Shown here piece by piece: positions 9,772-18,733 of a stretch of 40,998 nt of DNA. The notes beneath the pieces are model-generated. The model was not told the DNA's origin and did no database searches. It saw only the letters and a list, made by a program, of their open reading frames with translations. Each line of letters starts with the position of its first letter. Positions within the stretch are counted from its first letter, which is position 1. The position numbers and the translations under genes are program-made. Source of the stretch: an uncultured Eubacteriales bacterium. GTDB lineage: Bacteria > Bacillota > Clostridia > Oscillospirales > Acutalibacteraceae. The stretch is taken from contig OMXW01000003.1 in NCBI GenBank assembly GCA_900315085.1, forward strand, positions 1 to 40,998, in the 5' to 3' direction.

Positions 9772-11739
9772 TCATTTGTATTCTACGCTATCAAGCTGAA
9801 ATGTGCTTCTGTCAGGGTCGGGAATCAAATAGATTTTATCTCCGATGTACACGCATCGCAGGGTTGGATCGTTATTGGTGTACTGCCGAATAATTTTGAT
9901 CTTTCCGTTTTCAATCTTAAAATTGAGCATTCCTCCGTTCTGCGTTTCCTCGCCTGAGCTTTCGAGCGGTATTATATAGTCGCCGCGTTCGGGATTGTAA
10001 ACAAGTGCGCGCGGCTGGTCCATTACGTTGGAATACTTATTTATTTTCTTGGTATCGGCAACCTTTGGCTTCATTGGATCGCTGACATCAAACAACACAA
10101 GCTTTAGCTTGTTTTCCACCGTTCCGTCCCTGCTCTCGCTGTAACCGATTCCGAGCACCTTGTTTTTGCCGACAGGGACAATCATACTTGAAAATCCGCT
10201 GATTTCAACCGCGCCGAGCAGCTTTGGCTTTTTAGGATTTTTAAGGCTGACTGCAAACAGCGGGTCTGTGTTGCGGTAGGTGATTATATACGCCGTATCA
10301 TCCAGGAAACGTACAGCCTTGCACTCTTCGCCCTTGGCAATTTTCCCTACTGAGCCAACGTTTTTCATATTCTCATCCAATACCGTCAGCTTTGTATGTT
10401 CGGCTTTGACATCCAAATCCAAAGACACGACCCTAAGATAACCGTTGCGCTCGTCCATCCAATACTGATTTTCAACAGTTCCGCCAACTGTGCCTCCTGC
10501 GACAAATTCAAGATTGTCTTTCAGACTTATTTTAACGATATTTGTATACCTGTTTTCCGAATTGAGCCGGCTATAATTACAGTCTGTGAGGTAGATGTTT
10601 TTTTCGCTGCAATACACGATATTCGCTGTTCCGATTACCGCGTGAGTGTCGATATCTTTCTCCTCATATTTAGTATCAAATGCGCTGATAACCGTCATGT
10701 CACAGTTTTGAGCCTTTGAAAAAGAATAAATTTTATTCGCGGTCAGCTTTTTAAGCTCACCTTTTTTTCCGGAGCGCGGAATCAGATTATTCTCATTTGA
10801 AAAATCCGTATATTCATCATGACTGTAATTTGATACCACATACAGTTTTGAACCTATCATTCGAGACGCTGTAAAGTCGCCGCTTTGTCCCATCATATCA
10901 ACAGCAGTAATATTATTTATGTCCGACACATCATAAACCACAGCATACACCGCGCTTGTTTCAACTTCTTTGTCGTTCATCACGTCCGGTACAAAGTATA
11001 CGTCGCAAATTACAATCAGCCTGCCGTCGCCGGCATATAGCTCACTGACTGCCAGATAATTGATTGTTGTTGTATTATTAATCGATTCTTTGATGCTTTT
11101 CCTTATGTTAATTGAAATTTCTTTATTGCTGTTTGGAACAAACACTTTGATCGTTCCGTACGTTCCGCTGTTATCGGCGCAGTAGATATTTTTTCCGTCG
11201 TTTTTTACTATGTCGCCCTCGTCAACGTTTTCCTCCTGACGATATGTTTTGCTGAAAGCTTCATAGTCTGAACCGCCATTGCCTGAACCCGACGAAGAAC
11301 CCCCTGAACTGCCCGCAACTATTTCATCCGCGGAATTGCTGTCCTCACCTTCATAATATGAGTTGTAATCGTCGTTTAATTCTTTCATGGTCATGCAGAT
11401 GTCCTTGTAGCTGTTGTAATGATACAGCATTGTTTTTGCGTCGTAGGTTCTGCTTACCGTATTATCATCGGGAGCGGTTGTCTGAGCGGTTTCCTCTGTC
11501 TTTACGGCGGAGTTATTTGAATTGAACAGGATTATTGTTATGGTCAGCACCGAAACAGCAACAGCCACTGACGCCGCGACAGCGGTTATTTTTTTGAGCC
11601 TGCCGCCCGGATTTTTCATTTCGCACACAGGCTCAATGTCTTTGATCGCGTCAAGCGCAAAGCCTTCGCCGAGTGAATACGGCGCCTTTACTCCGCTGTT
11701 TTCAAATTTGTCTTTTATAAAATCAAGGTCATTTTTCAT
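9772..11739 (-). CDS. membrane-tethered beta-propeller protein, probable anti-sigma/sensor partner
   Basis: 655 residues. The cytoplasmic head (1-50) has the length of short anti-sigma domains. One membrane segment follows at 51-72 (ITAVAASVAVAVSVLTITII). Next is a Thr-rich linker and a helix (TMLYHYNSYKDICMTMKELN), a Ser/Gly-rich spacer (GSSGGSSSGSGNGGS) and, from about residue 165, the beta-propeller family that opens NVDEGDIVKNDGKNIYC and repeats strands with Y...GDGRLIV, GSKLYVVSNY and GDKIYLIPD. The ATG lies 4 bp past the sigma factor's stop, and its ribosome site AGGTGA contains that stop, so translation is coupled. Family knowledge: C-terminal beta-propeller proteins of this type sit on the outside of Gram-positive cells. 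I infer that the head holds the sigma factor; no known anti-sigma motif is obvious. Confidence 0.85.
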   Translation of the reverse strand: MKNDLDFIKDKFENSGVKAPYSLGEGFALDAIKDIEPVCEMKNPGGRLKKITAVAASVAVAVSVLTITIILFNSNNSAVKTEETAQTTAPDDNTVSRTYDAKTMLYHYNSYKDICMTMKELNDDYNSYYEGEDSNSADEIVAGSSGGSSSGSGNGGSDYEAFSKTYRQEENVDEGDIVKNDGKNIYCADNSGTYGTIKVFVPNSNKEISINIRKSIKESINNTTTINYLAVSELYAGDGRLIVICDVYFVPDVMNDKEVETSAVYAVVYDVSDINNITAVDMMGQSGDFTASRMIGSKLYVVSNYSHDEYTDFSNENNLIPRSGKKGELKKLTANKIYSFSKAQNCDMTVISAFDTKYEEKDIDTHAVIGTANIVYCSEKNIYLTDCNYSRLNSENRYTNIVKISLKDNLEFVAGGTVGGTVENQYWMDERNGYLRVVSLDLDVKAEHTKLTVLDENMKNVGSVGKIAKGEECKAVRFLDDTAYIITYRNTDPLFAVSLKNPKKPKLLGAVEISGFSSMIVPVGKNKVLGIGYSESRDGTVENKLKLVLFDVSDPMKPKVADTKKINKYSNVMDQPRALVYNPERGDYIIPLESSGEETQNGGMLNFKIENGKIKIIRQYTNNDPTLRCVYIGDKIYLIPDPDRSTFQLDSVEYK

Positions 11740-11745
11740 GCTTGA

Positions 11746-12252
11746 TCACCTCAAAAACGCTTTCATTTTTGCAAGACTGCGCGACAGCCGCGAGCGAACC
11801 GTGTTTGGGTTTTGTCCCGTGAGCCTGCCGATTTCCCTGCTGTTAAAGCCTGCAACGGCTGACAGCAAAACTATATCTCTGTCGGTTGAATCGAGCAGAC
11901 TGAGAGCCTCGCTAAGTTCGGCTGAGGCAAAGCACGGTTCATATGAAGCGGAGTTTTTGTGACTGTCAAGGCTTTCAACGCCTTTGTTTTCAATCTGACG
12001 TTTTACAAGAGCGCAGCAGCTTCGGTAGAGGATCTTAAAAATCCACGCGTCAAACGCTTTTTCGTTTTTCAGCGTTCCGATGCTCTGATAGGCGCAGACT
12101 ATACAATCAGCCACCGCGTCCTGCGCGTCACTGTCGTTTCCGAGTTTGAAATAGGCGTACCTGTACAGCCTGTCCTTATACTGCGAATACAGCTTGGCAA
12201 AAGCCTCTTTGTCGCCCTGCACCGCCCTTTTTATCAGATTGTCTCCGCTCAT
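11746..12252 (-). CDS. ECF sigma factor (sigma-70 family)
   Basis: 168 residues with the two-domain ECF layout. Region 2 spans about 10-80 (EAFAKLYSQYKDRLYRYAYF; DAQDAVADCIVCAYQSIG; AFDAWIFKILYR). Region 4 spans about 110-165 (LSEALSLLDSTDRDIVLLSA; GFNSREIGRLTGQNPNTVRS, then RLSRSLAKM). It directs RNA polymerase to alternative promoters. It is the first gene of a two-gene operon with the tethered propeller protein. Start: ATG at 12252 behind GGGAGGCAATAAA. A TGCAAC-type element upstream suggests autoregulation. The signal it answers is unknown. Confidence 0.92.
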   Translation of the reverse strand: MSGDNLIKRAVQGDKEAFAKLYSQYKDRLYRYAYFKLGNDSDAQDAVADCIVCAYQSIGTLKNEKAFDAWIFKILYRSCCALVKRQIENKGVESLDSHKNSASYEPCFASAELSEALSLLDSTDRDIVLLSAVAGFNSREIGRLTGQNPNTVRSRLSRSLAKMKAFLR

Positions 12253-12371: not shown

Positions 12372-13022
12372 TTATTTGCAAAGGCTTTTTAATTTTTCAA
12401 TAGCCTGAGCCGCGTCGTCAGCCTTGAACACTGCCGTACCGGCTACGCAGACGTCCACTCCCGCGGCGGCTGCCTGAGCGATTGTGCCCTCGCCTATTCC
12501 GCCGTCGGCTTCAACGAGAAGGTCAAGTCCGCGCTTTTTGCACTCGTCCTTGATTTGCGTTACCTTTGGAAGCATGTCCGCCATGAAGCTTTGTCCGCCG
12601 AAGCCCGGCTCTACCGTCATTACAAGCACTAAATCGAGCTTGTCAAGATACGGGAACACCGCGCTTGCAGGGGTTTTCGGCTTGATTACCAAGCCGACCT
12701 TTATTCCGCGCGATTTGATTTTTTCAATTGTTTCATCGATCGGAGAATCACACTCAACGTGAAAAGTGATTATATCCGCGCCGGCGTTTGCAAAGTCGTC
12801 GATGTATTTTAGCGGATCGGTAATCATAAGGTGAACGTCATAGGGCTTGTCCGAATACTTGCGGACGGTTTTGTAGACGGGAGCGCCAAAGGTGATGTTG
12901 GGCACAAAGTGGCCGTCCATTACGTCGAGGTGCATCCAGTCCGCGCCTGCCTTGTCCATTCTTTCGATTTCACTGCCCATTTTTGAAAAGTCACACGATA
13001 AAAGTGACGGAGCTATTTTCAA
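12372..13022 (-). CDS. rpe: ribulose-phosphate 3-epimerase
   Basis: 216 residues, the usual length for a single TIM-barrel epimerase interconverting ribulose 5-phosphate and xylulose 5-phosphate in the cytosolic pentose phosphate pathway. Diagnostic segments are IAPSLLSCDFSKMGSEIERM, WMHLDVMDGHFVPNITFG (metal-binding His and Asp), KPYDVHLMITDP, TFHVE, LVLVMTVEPGFGGQSFM and VEADGGIGEGT. Start: TTG at 13022 behind GGGAGGAAACAAA; no better ATG is available. It is the last gene of an operon after rlmB and the pseudo-P-type ATPase, with an 18-bp gap upstream and a terminator downstream. Confidence 0.97.
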   Translation of the reverse strand: MKIAPSLLSCDFSKMGSEIERMDKAGADWMHLDVMDGHFVPNITFGAPVYKTVRKYSDKPYDVHLMITDPLKYIDDFANAGADIITFHVECDSPIDETIEKIKSRGIKVGLVIKPKTPASAVFPYLDKLDLVLVMTVEPGFGGQSFMADMLPKVTQIKDECKKRGLDLLVEADGGIGEGTIAQAAAAGVDVCVAGTAVFKADDAAQAIEKLKSLCK

Positions 13023-13040: not shown

Positions 13041-15731
13041 TTACGGTTTCTGAATTGACGGCGCAATCACCGTTGCCGCTGCCCAGAACATCGCATAGAT
13101 AAGCACTTCGAGCGAGCCCATTACTCCCACGCCGGCGTAGAGCGCAAGGGTTGAAGCGATAAGCAGACCGATAATTACGGCGATAAGCTGGATCATGATC
13201 GCAAGCGAAATATTCTGCTTGATTTTTACGCAGCCGGAAACCGCTCTTGACATTGCGGAAGCCTTGCCGTTTGAAATAAGATACGAACGCGAGGTTTCCT
13301 CTACCACGCTTTGAGCCTCCTTGAGCACGTTACCGAGTCCTGTGGGCAGCACCTTTATGCTGCGATAGAACAGGTTGTAAAGCTTTGCGACAAGCTCGTC
13401 GTTGATGTTGTGGTCGGTTGTTCTGATAAGGAAGCTGATTCCGTTTGCCTCGGCGCGCTGAAGCTCGCTTTTTAGCTCGGGGTCGGCATGATATTTTGTT
13501 ACAATCATCGCCACAAGTCTGCCTGCGCGCGAAAGATATGTGATTTGTCTGTCGTCCTTTGAGTACTTTTCCTCGTAGTCGGCGGCAGGGGTTTCTACAT
13601 TATATTTTTCCATGAGTTGGCGCGAACCTACAAGAATACGTTCACCGTTGATCCAGCCTACAAGTCCCAGGTCGTCCTCATAGAGCACCGACTCAACCTC
13701 GGGCAGAGTTTCCTTTGTCTCGGTAACGACCGAATCAAAGGCGTTAGCTATCGGGTTGCCTGCTTCCTTGAGGATCGCTATGCCGCAGAGCAGAGACTCG
13801 TCAACGTTGAATTCCTCAAAGGTTTTTATTCCCTCAAGCTCAATCGTATCCGCAGGGAACAACTCGTTTGCGTCAAGCATGATCGCGGTGCTGTCGCAGA
13901 ACTGCTTGATTGACGGATAACCCGCAATCATTGAGCCGTATTCGTTTACGTTCTTGCACAGCCTCTTTACGGGAAAGTTGACCGCGAGAAGCGTTGCTAC
14001 GGGAATTCCCAGCGCGGTTATGAGCGCAAAGGTATTGATTGCGTCCGAGAACGAAAGCTTGACTACTCCGTACAGCAGCGCGACTACGAGTGCAGTTACC
14101 GTTGTAATGGGAGCCATTTTTGAAGCCAAGTCCTCGCTGGGGTCGGGCGCGTACGATATTTTAAGGAAGTTGGACGGGAATTTGGTTTTGTGCTGATATG
14201 CTATAAGCGTTTCCTCCGAGGGGGTGCCGCTCAGCATTTTATTTGCCACGCTTTCGTTGTTGTAAATTTTGGCGGCGTATTTTTGTCCCTTTGCGGATAC
14301 AAAGCGGAAGTTATCCCTTACCCTGACAACCATCAGCAGCTTGCCGAGGTTATTTGCGAAGAACGCAAGCAGCACAACCGAACAGTAGTAGTTGATATTG
14401 AAGCCCGACATATCGCCGAGGCAGAAAAAGCTTACCACTGTCTGAACCGCCGCCGCCACAGCCGCCACAGCTACCGCTGTATCGGAGTTGCCCTTGAATT
14501 TGAGCATGGGCGTCAGTCCGTTTGTCATAGCCACGCGGTTGAGCGCGATCGACGAGCCGATAAACAGGAAGTTGAACACCGCGTACGCCGCAGGCGCAAC
14601 CGGGATTCCGGAGATTATTGCGTCTGGGAACAGCCTTGCCGCAACGGTGATTATTATTGCCACAGCCGCGATTATTCCCGAAATAAGGCTGCGGAAAAAC
14701 AGCTTCTTAATATTTGAACTGAGCTCGTAGCGGATGCTGGACTCGTCGTCCTCGCCTGTGTAGTCCTCTACGGGAGTTGATTTTTCTTTTGGGGTGTCGG
14801 TGTCGTCAGACTCGTCCTTTGAGAAAAAGCCTACTACCGCCGACAGGATTTTTTCCTGAGTGGTGCGGCTGTCCTCGGGAGCTTCTTCCTCCTGAGCTTC
14901 GGGCTTTGGCTCGGGCTTGATTACATGTGCCATGACCGACGGATTCTTTGAGCGTATGTATTCCTCATACTGCCCTGCCACAACGTCGGAGAAGCGCCCT
15001 GCCTTAACGTTTAATATATTTGAAGGCTCGTCAAGCTGATAAACCGGAACCTTTGACACTACCCTTTGAGCAGACTTGGTGTCGGATTCGTTTGCCGCGA
15101 AGAGCTCCTTGTACTTTTCCTTGCTCTCCTTTTCGCGCTTTTCCGCCTCCTGCTCGTACTTTTCGGTGTCGAGGTCGATATCGATTGACTCTATACTCTC
15201 GATTCTGCTCGTCTCGCGGAACTGCTCGATTTCTCCGATTACGTCTCCTGCAAACTGCGTGCCCTCGGCGTATTCGGGGGTGAGGGTGACGATTTTTGTT
15301 TCCTCGGGCTTTGGAGCTTCCTCCGCCTTCTTTTCTTCCTCTGCCGCCTTTTCGGCCTCAGCCTGCTTTTGCTCCTCGTCAAGCTGCTCGGGAGTTTTTA
15401 CGCTCTCCTGACTTCCGTCCATCATCAGCTCGGTTTGGATCGTGGTTGCGGTTTTGTCGCCGACTATGCTGTTTTCTGCCTTGTTCTTTGAACCCTTCTT
15501 ATCCTTTTTGCCGTCGCTGTCCACCACGGTGAGGGGGTCGGCATTTGTAAGACGCGGCTTTTTGTCGGCGTTGCTGAAGATATCCTGTACCTTCGGCTTT
15601 GCGCGGTATTTCTGTGCAGTCTTTTTCATCTGCTCGGATTCCGCTAATTCGTGACTCTCCTCGAGGATGCTCTGGATTTCAAGCTCTTTTAACAGATTTT
15701 CTCTTTTGTCCTGATCCGACAAAGCTGTCAC
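13041..15731 (-). CDS. degenerate P-type-ATPase-like membrane protein with long charged N-terminus
   Basis: 896 residues. Residues 1-340 are hydrophilic, rich in Glu/Lys/Asp and low in complexity (EEQKQAEAEKAAEEEKKAEE). Hydrophobic segments follow near 345-367, 373-398, 415-440, 448-468, 540-558 and 563-585, and two more near 842-865 and 870-892. The order matches heavy-metal P-type ATPases, but key motifs are changed. The membrane CPC region reads LGIPVATLL. The phosphorylation motif DKTGT reads DANEL at 620-624 (IMLDANELFP). VGWINGERILVGSRQLMEKY at 691-710 matches the nucleotide-domain V.G..V.VG segment. TGDN reads TTDHN at 771-775, and TGDGxNDxxAL reads ISNGKASAM. Only the candidate Asp survives, without its KTGT, so ion pumping is very unlikely. 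Start ATG 15731 overlaps the rlmB stop by four bases. Confidence 0.85.
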   Translation of the reverse strand: MTALSDQDKRENLLKELEIQSILEESHELAESEQMKKTAQKYRAKPKVQDIFSNADKKPRLTNADPLTVVDSDGKKDKKGSKNKAENSIVGDKTATTIQTELMMDGSQESVKTPEQLDEEQKQAEAEKAAEEEKKAEEAPKPEETKIVTLTPEYAEGTQFAGDVIGEIEQFRETSRIESIESIDIDLDTEKYEQEAEKREKESKEKYKELFAANESDTKSAQRVVSKVPVYQLDEPSNILNVKAGRFSDVVAGQYEEYIRSKNPSVMAHVIKPEPKPEAQEEEAPEDSRTTQEKILSAVVGFFSKDESDDTDTPKEKSTPVEDYTGEDDESSIRYELSSNIKKLFFRSLISGIIAAVAIIITVAARLFPDAIISGIPVAPAAYAVFNFLFIGSSIALNRVAMTNGLTPMLKFKGNSDTAVAVAAVAAAVQTVVSFFCLGDMSGFNINYYCSVVLLAFFANNLGKLLMVVRVRDNFRFVSAKGQKYAAKIYNNESVANKMLSGTPSEETLIAYQHKTKFPSNFLKISYAPDPSEDLASKMAPITTVTALVVALLYGVVKLSFSDAINTFALITALGIPVATLLAVNFPVKRLCKNVNEYGSMIAGYPSIKQFCDSTAIMLDANELFPADTIELEGIKTFEEFNVDESLLCGIAILKEAGNPIANAFDSVVTETKETLPEVESVLYEDDLGLVGWINGERILVGSRQLMEKYNVETPAADYEEKYSKDDRQITYLSRAGRLVAMIVTKYHADPELKSELQRAEANGISFLIRTTDHNINDELVAKLYNLFYRSIKVLPTGLGNVLKEAQSVVEETSRSYLISNGKASAMSRAVSGCVKIKQNISLAIMIQLIAVIIGLLIASTLALYAGVGVMGSLEVLIYAMFWAAATVIAPSIQKP

Positions 15732-16489
15732 TTCCTTTCTGTTCTGCCGTCCATTGCGCGGTACATCAGTATTCCCGCCGCAACCGAGGCATTTAATGAA
15801 TTAATGTTTCCCTTCATCGGAAGCGAAACTATTACGTCGCATTTTTCACGCACAAGTCGCGAAAGCCCTTTGCCCTCGTTTCCTACCACTATGGCGCAGG
15901 CTCCCGAAAAATCGCATTTTCTGTAATCGGTGCCGTTCATGTCGGCTCCGTATACCCATACGCCCTTTGACTTTAAGTCGTCTATCAGGGCGGCGATATT
16001 TGTTACCCTTGCAACGCGCATGTACTCAACCGCACCTGCCGAAGCCTTGCCGACGGTGTAGCTTAGTCCCGCGCTGCGCCGCTTTGGGATGATTACGCCG
16101 TGAACTCCCGCGCATTCGGCTGTTCTGATTACCGCGCCGAGATTGTGCGGATCTTCAAGCTCGTCCAAAATCACAAGAAACGGAGCTTCATCCCGGCTTT
16201 GGGCGTAGTCGAGTATTTCCTCGACCGTGCAGTAGTCCTTGACGGCGGCGAACGCGATTATTCCCTGATGAGGCGCGCCCGCGCTGATGTAGTCAAGCTT
16301 TGCGCGGTCTACCTCCTTGACTGGTATCTGCTTATCCCTCGCCTTGGCAAGAATTCCTACTACCGCTCCGCTTTTCTCGCCCCTCGCGACAAGTATTTTG
16401 TCAATTGGTCTGCTGCCGCGCAGGGCTTCGCTTACGGGATTTCTGCCCGAAATAACGTCCGATTTTCTTTCAGTGTTCTTTTCTTTCAT
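15728..16489 (-). CDS. rlmB: 23S rRNA (guanosine-2'-O-)-methyltransferase RlmB-like (TrmH/SpoU)
   Basis: 253 residues from the ATG at 16489, which follows GCGAGGATTTGGC; the frame is open to 16543 without a better site. The N-terminal substrate-binding domain is DVISGRNPVSEALRGSRPID (about 10-80). The SPOUT domain has the three TrmH motifs: LDELEDPHNLGAVIRTAE, IVVGNEGKGLSRLV and VSLPMKGNINSLNASVAAGI. It uses S-adenosylmethionine to 2'-O-methylate a guanosine, by family knowledge G2251 of 23S rRNA; other RNA targets are possible. It heads the operon with the P-type-ATPase-like gene and rpe. Confidence 0.93.
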   Translation of the reverse strand: MKEKNTERKSDVISGRNPVSEALRGSRPIDKILVARGEKSGAVVGILAKARDKQIPVKEVDRAKLDYISAGAPHQGIIAFAAVKDYCTVEEILDYAQSRDEAPFLVILDELEDPHNLGAVIRTAECAGVHGVIIPKRRSAGLSYTVGKASAGAVEYMRVARVTNIAALIDDLKSKGVWVYGADMNGTDYRKCDFSGACAIVVGNEGKGLSRLVREKCDVIVSLPMKGNINSLNASVAAGILMYRAMDGRTERK

Positions 16490-16633: not shown

Positions 16634-17173
16634 TTATTTGATAATAGTAAATAATGCGTCCGCTCCGAAATCATAGCCTATGGGCGGTATTCCGTACTGA
16701 CCTGATATTTTGTCGGCAAAGAGCTGATTTTTTGGCGGAAAAGGCGTAAAGCTGAAATAAAACGCCAGAAGCAAAAACAGTGTGCACAGCGCGGCAGGAA
16801 ACAAACTTTCAAGATTCAGATGGCTTTTTGAGAGGATATATGAGAAAATTTGAGCCGTCAAAACGGAAACCGAAGCAATTAACAGCTCGGAGTTTTTGCC
16901 GTTAAGTACAGTTGACAGCGACAAATACAGCCCCAGCAGCAGGCACATTGACGAGGCTTTAACTACCGCGAGCCTGTGTAGCCCTTTTCCGAGGCAGAGC
17001 AATTCAAGCATTGACCACGCAAGGTAAGGCAAAAACAGCGTTTTGGCGTATTCCCACGGACTTGAATTTACGCTGCCGAACAGCACGCCCGACAGCCCGT
17101 AGTTTGAGAGCGTGTAAAGATTTCTCATAAATATGCAGCCGACCGCGGTGAACAGACAGCCCGCTATTTCCAT
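16634..17173 (-). CDS. DUF6512-like membrane protein, 5' end in another frame (frameshift)
   Basis: The 179-residue ORF has five hydrophobic segments, a SVNSSPWEYAKTLFLPYLAW motif like the 'VNESVWEH.K..F.P' signature of DUF6512-type membrane proteins, and a final IPPIGYDFGADALF tail. Its ATG at 17173 has no ribosome site. A start with GGAGG does exist at 17201, in the other frame, and encodes MKTAQKIYFYGN. Removing one base from the A6 or T5 run at about 17174-17190 joins the two as MKTAQKIYFMEIAGCLF, restoring the expected N-terminal helix. So this is either a real frameshift, slippage at a homopolymer, or a sequence error. Function unknown. Confidence 0.7.
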   Translation of the reverse strand: MEIAGCLFTAVGCIFMRNLYTLSNYGLSGVLFGSVNSSPWEYAKTLFLPYLAWSMLELLCLGKGLHRLAVVKASSMCLLLGLYLSLSTVLNGKNSELLIASVSVLTAQIFSYILSKSHLNLESLFPAALCTLFLLLAFYFSFTPFPPKNQLFADKISGQYGIPPIGYDFGADALFTIIK

Positions 17174-17201
17174 AAAAATAAATTTTTTGTGCAGTTTTCA
17201 T

Positions 17202-17555
17202 ACACCTCCGAAAAATTACAGAATTGAATTATTTTTCTTTGGAATTATAAGCCCGAATTTATTTTCCTGAGCGGAATTTATACGTTTTGTATAGTTCTTT
17301 AATTTCAAATAAATGTTGAAAACTATGTTAAAAGTGTTAAACACACAGCTGTGTAAAATCAAAAGCAAGGTAATATTTTCCTCAGTTATCCGTTTGTACC
17401 ACGGTTTTTAATATTTTCCACATAGTTTTTAACATTCTAAATAAGAATAATGATGATTACAAATTGTATATTTTTAAAGTCAATGAGTTTTTAGAATAAT
17501 TAAAATTTCATTTTTCTCATTCACAAAAATATCACCATGATTTGTTACAAAATCA
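17202..17555. other. 354-bp AT-rich gene-free stretch with DnaA-box-like motifs
   Basis: No ORF with a ribosome site is present. It contains TTTTCCACA (17414-17422), TTTTACACA on the minus strand (17351-17359, read as TGTGTAAAA), the near-match TGTTGAAAA at about 17313-17321, and the perfect 12-bp palindrome ACACAGCTGTGT at 17344-17355. On the minus strand TTGTAA, 17 bp, TAGAAT is a possible promoter for the DUF6512-like gene. A weak hairpin (ATGATTT/AAATCAT) just past the spmB stop may be its terminator. Confidence 0.5.
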
Positions 17556-18062
17556 TTACAAAAAATTCTTGACAACGATCACGCTTACGGCAAATGCAGT
17601 TAAATCCGCCGCTATTGCAGCGACGAGTGTGTGACGCACATTTCTTATGCCTATGCTGCCGTAATACATTGCCACCGCGTAAAAGGTGGTTTCGCTTGAA
17701 CCCGCGATTACCGAGGCTACTCTGCCGGCGAAGCTGTCCGGCCCGCACTGCTCATAGACCGAAATCAGCAGCGCGCTTGAACCGCTGCCCGACACAGGGC
17801 GAAGCATTGCCATTGGCACAACCTCCTTTGGAAATCCCAAAAAATCGGCGGCAGGCTGAACGAATTTACAGATTGCGTCCACCGCTCCGCTTGACCGCAG
17901 CAGGCTGACAGCGAAAACAAGTCCGATTATGGTTGGCGCTATCTGAAAGAGCACCCCGGCGCCCTCGCGCGCCCCCTGGATGAAGCAGTCAAACACTGGC
18001 ACGCGCTTTATTAAGCCGAAGCAGACTATTGCCGCGGCAAAAAGCGGCATTGCGAACTCCAA
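17556..18062 (-). CDS. spmB: spore maturation protein B
   Basis: 168 residues from TTG 18062, which lies 7 bp behind GGGAGG and one base after the spmA stop; the longer frame to 18077 includes the ribosome site itself. It is a nucleoside-recognition/Gate-type membrane protein with segments AMPLFAAAIVCFGLIKRVPV, GAGVLFQIAPTIIGLVFAVS, LRPVSGSGSSALLISVYEQC and AGSSETTFYAVAMYYGSIGI, the last two being SpmB signatures. In Bacillus subtilis SpmA and SpmB are needed for core dehydration of the spore; homologues also occur in non-sporulating clostridia, so presence alone does not prove sporulation. Confidence 0.92.
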   Translation of the reverse strand: MEFAMPLFAAAIVCFGLIKRVPVFDCFIQGAREGAGVLFQIAPTIIGLVFAVSLLRSSGAVDAICKFVQPAADFLGFPKEVVPMAMLRPVSGSGSSALLISVYEQCGPDSFAGRVASVIAGSSETTFYAVAMYYGSIGIRNVRHTLVAAIAADLTAFAVSVIVVKNFL

Positions 18063-18063
18063 G

Positions 18064-18651
18064 TTATTTCCTCCCAACTTTGAATTTATTAAGTCCTATT
18101 GCCAGGGTGAGCGCGACCGCAAGCGCGCAAGCCGAGCTTATCCAGACGCAGGTCATTATTTCAAACGGAGCCTTGCTGCCGTAGCTCTGCCTGAGAGTGC
18201 CGAGCATTGTGGGTAGAAGCTGCAGCGAAGCGGTATTCATTACCACAAATATCACCATTTCATCGCTGGCGGTTTTGCTGCCGCCGTTTAATTTGTTCAA
18301 CCCCTGCATAGCTTTTAGCCCGAAAGGAGTTGCCGTGTTGCCCAAGCCCAAAAGATTTGCGCTGATATTCATAGTAATGCTTCCGAAGGTCTCGCCCTGA
18401 GGGTCAAGGTTCGGGAACAGAAGCCGCAGAAGCGGTGAAAAGACCTTTGCAATAAGCGCGGTAAATCCGCTTTTTTCAGCGATTTTCATTATTCCCGACC
18501 ACAGACACATTACGCCCGCCATTGTGATGAGCAGCTCAATTGCCGCCGCTCCGCTGTCAATTACCGCCGTTGAAAGCTCCTGAGTGTTTCCGCAGACAAC
18601 CGAGCAGATTATGCTTGCGACAACGATTGCGCTCCAGATGTAATTTAACAT
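18064..18651 (-). CDS. spmA: spore maturation protein A
   Basis: 195 residues from ATG 18651, 5 bp behind GGGGAGA; the frame runs on to 18711 without support. It has the SpmA membrane layout with signature segments MAGVMCLWSGIMKIAEKSGF, LFPNLDPQGETFGSITMNIS, ANLLGLGNTATPFGLKAMQG and VVMNTASLQLLPTMLGTLRQ. It precedes spmB with almost no gap, so the two are cotranslated. Its 5' region is shared with the divergent AbrB-like gene and holds repeated TTGACA/TGTCAA half-sites. Confidence 0.93.
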   Translation of the reverse strand: MLNYIWSAIVVASIICSVVCGNTQELSTAVIDSGAAAIELLITMAGVMCLWSGIMKIAEKSGFTALIAKVFSPLLRLLFPNLDPQGETFGSITMNISANLLGLGNTATPFGLKAMQGLNKLNGGSKTASDEMVIFVVMNTASLQLLPTMLGTLRQSYGSKAPFEIMTCVWISSACALAVALTLAIGLNKFKVGRK

Positions 18652-18704
18652 ATATCTCCCCGTTTCCGCAAAAAGAATAAAGATTGTCAAGTTTTTGACA
18701 TTTA

Positions 18705-18733
18705 TTGACAAACTATCCGTTAAATGGTAAAAT
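18705..18733 (+). promoter_or_regulatory. sigma-A promoter of the AbrB-like gene, with TGTCAA repeats
   Basis: Perfect TTGACA (18705-18710), 17-bp spacer, TAAAAT (18728-18733). A second TTGACA lies at 18695-18700 and an inverted copy, TGTCAA, at 18685-18690. The region lies between divergent genes. Confidence 0.82.

Follow-up and report, generated by a model that had tools for sequence, protein, structure and literature searches.

A P1B-type ATPase relative without catalytic motifs is linked to rlmB across one order of Clostridia

P-type ATPases are textbook pumps, and their E1–E2 cycle requires a phosphorylated Asp in its proper context together with the TGE and GDGxND motifs. What, then, is the role of a protein that resembles such a pump when these elements have gone and its gene is still intact? 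The question is raised by a locus in a 40,998-nt stretch of DNA, analysed as a whole and referred to here as the window, from a relative of Ruminococcus bromii. A preliminary description of the locus, made from the sequence alone, inferred a pseudo-pump that serves as a sensor, scaffold or membrane organiser. Our best overall explanation, to which we assign a probability of about 0.6, is a non-pumping membrane sensor or scaffold that was derived from a P1B pump and kept behind rlmB. That the pump is dead we regard as very likely, and whether it is a sensor or scaffold as evenly balanced.

The gene and its product

The minus-strand open reading frame runs from a GTG at 15731 to the stop codon at 13041 without interruption, giving the 896 codons that were originally described. 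The GTG overlaps the rlmB stop, but most homologues from the genus start at the position of the TTG at 15722, which lies 5 nt past the rlmB stop and has AAGGAAG ahead of it. Given these homologous starts and the good ribosome-binding site, the protein is probably 893 residues long. The features of the locus are collected in Table 1. Ruminococcus bromii strains are present among the 80 named loci of the genus, and uncultured Ruminococcus and Clostridia are the closest records that carry a name. The order is the one that we take to be called Oscillospirales in GTDB.

Table 1. Features of the pseudo-pump locus in the window
Feature	Coordinates	Strand	Basis or remark
rpe (ribulose-phosphate 3-epimerase), downstream neighbour in genus	12372..13022	minus	PF00834 E 2e-77
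Pseudo-P1B-ATPase gene	13041..15722	minus	893 codons + stop, TTG start; alternative GTG start 15731
N-terminal Glu/Lys-rich head, residues 1-323	14754..15722	minus	pLDDT mostly <60 except about residues 1-40; composition
First membrane block (MA, MB, M1, M2-like helices), residues 324-476	14295..14753	minus	model helices; alignment; NSD at the NMD position of copper pumps
A-domain remnant, residues 477-528, TGE gone	14139..14294	minus	segment lengths; TGE 0/68
M3/M4-like helices, residues 529-594, IPV at CPC position	13941..14138	minus	model; alignment
P + N domain remnant, residues 595-830	13233..13940	minus	DANELFP at old phosphorylation site, G686, G699, TTDHN, no GDGxND segment
Final two membrane helices (M5, M6-like), residues 831-893	13044..13232	minus	model; W880 conserved
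rlmB (SpoU-family rRNA 2'-O-methyltransferase), constant upstream neighbour	15728..16489	minus	PF00588 E 7e-45, PF08032 E 3e-16

The cytoplasmic head is rich in Glu and Lys, as had been described (28% of its residues, compared with 11% in the remainder), but it is about 323 rather than about 340 residues long. In the genus it carries EIQSILEES, of the form IxxILEE, in the region that holds a motif resembling FSLDDILAE in other members of the order. Among 45 order members longer than 600 aa, 27 have a loose pattern, [ILVMF][DEN][DESA][IL][IL]x[DE], within their first 120 residues and 18 lack it; a shuffle control gave a mean of 0.27 and a maximum of 2 (500 shuffles). This control overstates the significance of the motif, because the motifs were taken from the same sequences before counting. 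The count covers neither the genus rows nor sequences no longer than 600 aa, and it omits three loci hidden by antisense ORFs (L186, L192 and L204). A second motif, ELxDIRxLL, precedes the DDILxE-like motif in 6 of the 45 (L054, L190, L191, L193, L194 and L198). The idea that the N-terminal motif is a genome-wide localisation tag was unsupported when one exact degenerate pattern was searched in nine genomes: it gave 11 matches in seven of them, 5 at the N terminus of the pseudo-pump and 6 inside other ORFs, and the reversed control gave 2. One family of the order (L044, L188 and L199, with proteins of 544–546 aa; open frames of 541–564 aa) lacks a head, so the head lies outside the common minimum and recruitment through it cannot be universal.

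Predicted fold and lost catalytic positions

Pfam recognised no family, and no HMA domain, in the five members scanned (the window, L036, L044, L051 and L061). The NCBIfam P1B model TIGR01525 matched residues 533–798 (E 4.7e-13, 48.9 bits, far short of its curated cut-off of 346), and LpCopA (3rfu) matched with E 6e-6. An AlphaFold2 model built from the window protein and 54 relatives had an overall pLDDT of 73 and a pTM of 0.59. Its core, starting near residue 320, was well predicted (mean pLDDT about 87), the head poorly. When the model was compared with the PDB by Foldseek, P-type ATPases made up all of the best 50 of 387 rows (E up to 10), copper pumps first and LpCopA 4bbj at the top (E 4.3e-20). 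The best rows reached TM-scores by query of only 0.3–0.4, with an rmsd of about 11 Å, as may be expected when a protein has several domains and a long disordered head. The predicted structure thus has the P-type ATPase fold, including the extra N-terminal membrane helices, and bears out the likeness first proposed from sequence.

We aligned the last 640 residues of 68 relatives (51 from the order and 17 from the genus) with 26 active P1B pumps, omitting two loci with broken frames (L035 and L048) and one that holds the same gene as L042 (L061). Two segments are shorter in 68/68, by about 65 and about 31 residues, and the two segments between them are unchanged in length. The first, the A-domain segment from residue 470 to P538, has 67–68 residues in the genus and 55–79 across the 68, compared with 133–134 in active pumps, and TGE is kept in none of the 68; this halved A domain was missing from the losses originally listed. 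The second, the P-domain tail segment, has 63–69 residues rather than 97–104, and GDGxND, acidic residues included, is likewise found in 0/68. When the protein was aligned with the motif-complete P-type ATPases of the same genome, the GERILVG segment of the nucleotide domain was confirmed, as was the assignment of DANEL to the DKTGT site, TTDH to TGDN and IPV to CPC. The preliminary description had also equated ISNGKASAM with TGDGxND, which is wrong in detail, since the roughly 31 residues that carry the motif are simply missing. In none of the 68 relatives do the C-terminal 640 residues contain a DKTG or GDGxND string, so a true phosphorylation motif elsewhere in the chain, which would have refuted the idea of a pseudo-pump, did not come to light.

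The N domain has fared better: its glycines G699 and G686 are present in 100% and 97% of the 68 relatives. Its HP motif has lost the His in the alignment with the genome's own pumps, and position 744 is Tyr in 96% of relatives and Asp in 26/26 active pumps. Compared with the P1B-1 pump CopA (3rfu, 4bbj), the pseudo-pump shares the order of helices, including the extra N-terminal ones, the order of the P and N domains, the N-domain glycines, the Asp of TGD and, in most members, the Pro in M4. It differs in lacking TGE, DKTGT, GDGxND and CPC, in its halved A domain, in having no HMA domain detected by Pfam in the five members scanned, in the long charged head of most members and in the link to rlmB. 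With the P1B-2 pump ZntA (4umv, 4umw) it shares the overall fold, and the losses are the same.

The membrane part bears on one alternative, that of a passive channel or carrier through which an ion or small molecule is still moved without an ATP cycle. All the membrane helices are kept, and the Pro of the M4 CPC site remains in 53/68 relatives. However, the metal site itself is lost, with the first Cys in 4/68 and the second in 2/68, and the N and P domains hold many of the best-kept residues, although W880 (94% of the 68) and several Pro and Gly residues of the membrane part are kept too. We consider a channel or carrier unlikely.

Changes at the old phosphorylation site raise a further alternative. 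The Lys, the Gly and the last Thr of DKTGT are found in none of the 68 relatives, and the Asp in 27/68, including 13 of the 17 genus rows; the prevailing form of the site is x-x-[DE]-[LIV]-[FY]-P (D/E 60/68, F/Y 66/68, P 58/68). Of TGD, the Asp is kept in 66/68 and the Gly in 0/68. So non-random a site, alongside the nearly invariant Asp of TGD, could point to an altered but active enzyme with HAD-type activity or autophosphorylation at the remodelled position. Yet the Asp that would be the HAD nucleophile is kept by fewer than half of the relatives, and the acidic residues of GDGxND by none, which makes such an enzyme distinctly unlikely. Residual chemistry at the old site is not formally excluded, because most genus rows retain the Asp. 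Even so, a membrane sensor or scaffold derived from the pump remains the preferred reading.

Linkage to rlmB and distribution

An operon with rlmB and rpe had been proposed; the pairing with rlmB extends across the order, but rpe is a neighbour only within the genus. There, rlmB adjoins the pseudo-pump in 76/76 named loci with at least 900 nt upstream, and rpe lies downstream in 75/75 with at least 900 nt downstream (within 200 nt in 69). In 20 loci of other families, one locus each, the pair with rlmB was found in all and rpe beside the pseudo-pump in none. When these loci and the window were clustered, rlmB and the pseudo-pump were the only clusters present in all 21; the next commonest occurred in 5, and the remaining neighbours are scrambled across families.

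A search for rlmB in the order gave a match in 184/197 genomes, for which 150 rows were listed. In 143 of these 150 the pseudo-pump lies within 4 kb behind rlmB on the same strand; three lack this arrangement and four were not examined (G218, G119, G132 and G039). The 143 comprise 121 of 124 order genomes scored by profile A1 (at most 4 kb downstream, same strand), all 20 genomes without a listed A1 row, in which a wider profile found the gene behind rlmB, and two others (G055 and G040). As for the exceptions, in G174 and G090 fewer than 700 nt separate rlmB from the end of the contig on the relevant side, and the rlmB match is cut short in G136. Spacing is close: among 53 fetched order loci, 52 have an open frame beginning within 143 nt of the rlmB stop, the exception being L193 (619 nt). 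Of the 20 loci from other families, 18 have their first possible start no more than 39 nt from rlmB, and L036 and L042 show overlaps of 4 bases.

Within the genus, 33 of 35 sampled genomes gave a strong match (E 6.9e-139 or better), one (G021) gave none and one (G031) only a weak one. Across the order, profile A1 matched 163/197 genomes at E 1e-3, some of which may be active pumps; the pseudo-pump is apparently kept by most of the order. Profile A2 was run on 196 genomes of the class (7 of the order) and 149 of the phylum (2 of the order). In the 189 and 147 genomes outside the order it found, at the thresholds applied, only partial matches resembling active pumps or none, with the first 5–6 candidates per genome scored. 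The outside matches listed reached at most 126 bits at profile positions of about 440–745 or 262–415, as active pumps do; order members reached at least 342 bits. A hidden member outside the order is not excluded. A literature search, for which PMC10654040 was available only in part, found no described family of inactive bacterial P-type ATPases, which does not prove that there is none.

Other neighbours in the window, all on the minus strand, include a DUF6512 protein and a pair of adjoining SpmA/SpmB-like 'Gate' proteins (nucleoside recognition) upstream of rlmB (16634–18711). Downstream of rpe (9772–12252), a sigma-70-like factor of the ECF type precedes a large PF09826 beta-propeller protein. 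A sporulation-specific membrane protein would fit the position of the SpmA/SpmB-like genes, three and four genes upstream, and the spoIVA match in 174/197 sampled order genomes. On the other side, seven genomes that are at least 90% complete and have no spoIVA match (G063, G074, G088, G104, G118, G144 and G112, the last being L196) still have the gene following rlmB. For this reason a function restricted to sporulation is unlikely, spoIVA being the only sporulation gene checked there.

Selection, origin and possible function

The claim that the gene is under selection was upheld by dN/dS values of 0.03–0.10 for the core in seven pairs, which indicate purifying selection; dS is near saturation in most of them. 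For the P/N part (residues 576–835) the same seven pairs gave 0.028–0.098, and in one pair of core dS 0.76 (L075/L114) the core and P/N values were 0.032 and 0.028. The frame is unbroken in all 75 translated named loci of the 80 fetched (L106, L118, L121, L125 and L130 had no usable match and were excluded) and in 18 of the first 20 fetched order loci. Two relatives have broken frames, L035 (4164–6557, one in-frame stop) and L048 (6521–8745), whose pieces were not joined. A decaying pseudogene or assembly artefact, to which the vanished catalytic motifs and these two broken frames might point, is scarcely credible against such dN/dS values and so many intact frames.

The shared deletions point to a single origin, independently of any tree. 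In a 43-row tree the 17 pseudo-pump rows fall on one side of a branch with SH-aLRT 100, by a quick method that warned of long branches. The nearest pump type is unresolved, a clade with zinc-type pumps having a support of 25. NSD stands at the position of the copper-pump NMD in 17/17 genus rows, with N in only 14/51 and D in only 24/51 order rows; the genus form looks closer to NMD than to the residues of zinc-type pumps such as ZntA and may hint at a CopA-like ancestor. In a family from another order of the same class (f43, loci L055–L059), a CopA with complete catalytic motifs and an HMA domain, unlike the pseudo-pump, likewise follows rlmB in 5 of 7 sampled genomes. This CopA looked like a possible ancestral state, but the tree does not put it in that position and the f43 genome G380 has another gene behind rlmB, with no copper gene recognisable there by eye; the AU test leaves the matter undecided. 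Grouping the pseudo-pumps with f43 was neither rejected nor supported (AU p 0.396), and grouping them with L001 was also not rejected (p 0.36). In L055–L059 a 90-aa ORF, ACT-domain-like by eye, follows the copper ATPase, with one ORF intervening in L058.

With the context of the phosphorylated Asp, TGE and GDGxND lost, transport by an E1–E2 cycle is not to be expected. The loss of the motifs for phosphorylation and dephosphorylation, the shared deletions within one clade, the purifying selection and the rlmB linkage are computational observations, as is the predicted fold; that pumping has been lost is inferred, without an experiment. The criteria for a pseudoenzyme derived from a P-type ATPase (homology in fold and sequence, family-wide catalytic loss and purifying selection) are fulfilled, by computation only, and support a pseudo-pump in which the fold is retained but transport is no longer driven by ATP.

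We propose that a heavy-metal P1B ATPase would have lost its catalysis early in the history of one clostridial order, becoming an inactive membrane protein whose gene would since have been retained behind rlmB. This dead membrane pump probably has a new job. In active pumps, nucleotide is contacted by the glycines of the N domain and by the Asp of TGD; these rank among the best-kept parts, which is why we favour a sensor or scaffold at the membrane. Together, the retained N domain and this Asp could make up a module for binding or regulation, perhaps one that still takes a nucleotide, although the lost His of the HP motif weakens the idea of ATP binding. In members that have it, the mostly disordered cytoplasmic head may recruit a partner through its short motif. 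Sensor, scaffold and membrane organiser are all inferences among which the evidence does not choose, and the step to the first two rests on analogy with other pseudoenzymes. The tie to rlmB suggests that such a membrane-bound sensor or scaffold would be needed when ribosomes are made; a direct tie to ribosome maturation seems improbable to us. More speculative still, and in our view very improbable, is that the copper-type pump has become a core, non-transporting receptor in the membrane of these gut Clostridia. It would bind nucleotide through its N domain and the Asp of TGD without turnover and, by way of its partner gene rlmB, link the maturation of ribosomes to nucleotide or energy status at the membrane.

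The gene is widely conserved, of unknown function and unrecognised by Pfam in the members scanned, and it occurs in organisms such as Ruminococcus bromii. Its unexpectedly rigid tie to rlmB makes the question of function testable. A family that has endured without catalytic motifs across an order of gut bacteria that are abundant would mean a second use for the P-type ATPase scaffold.
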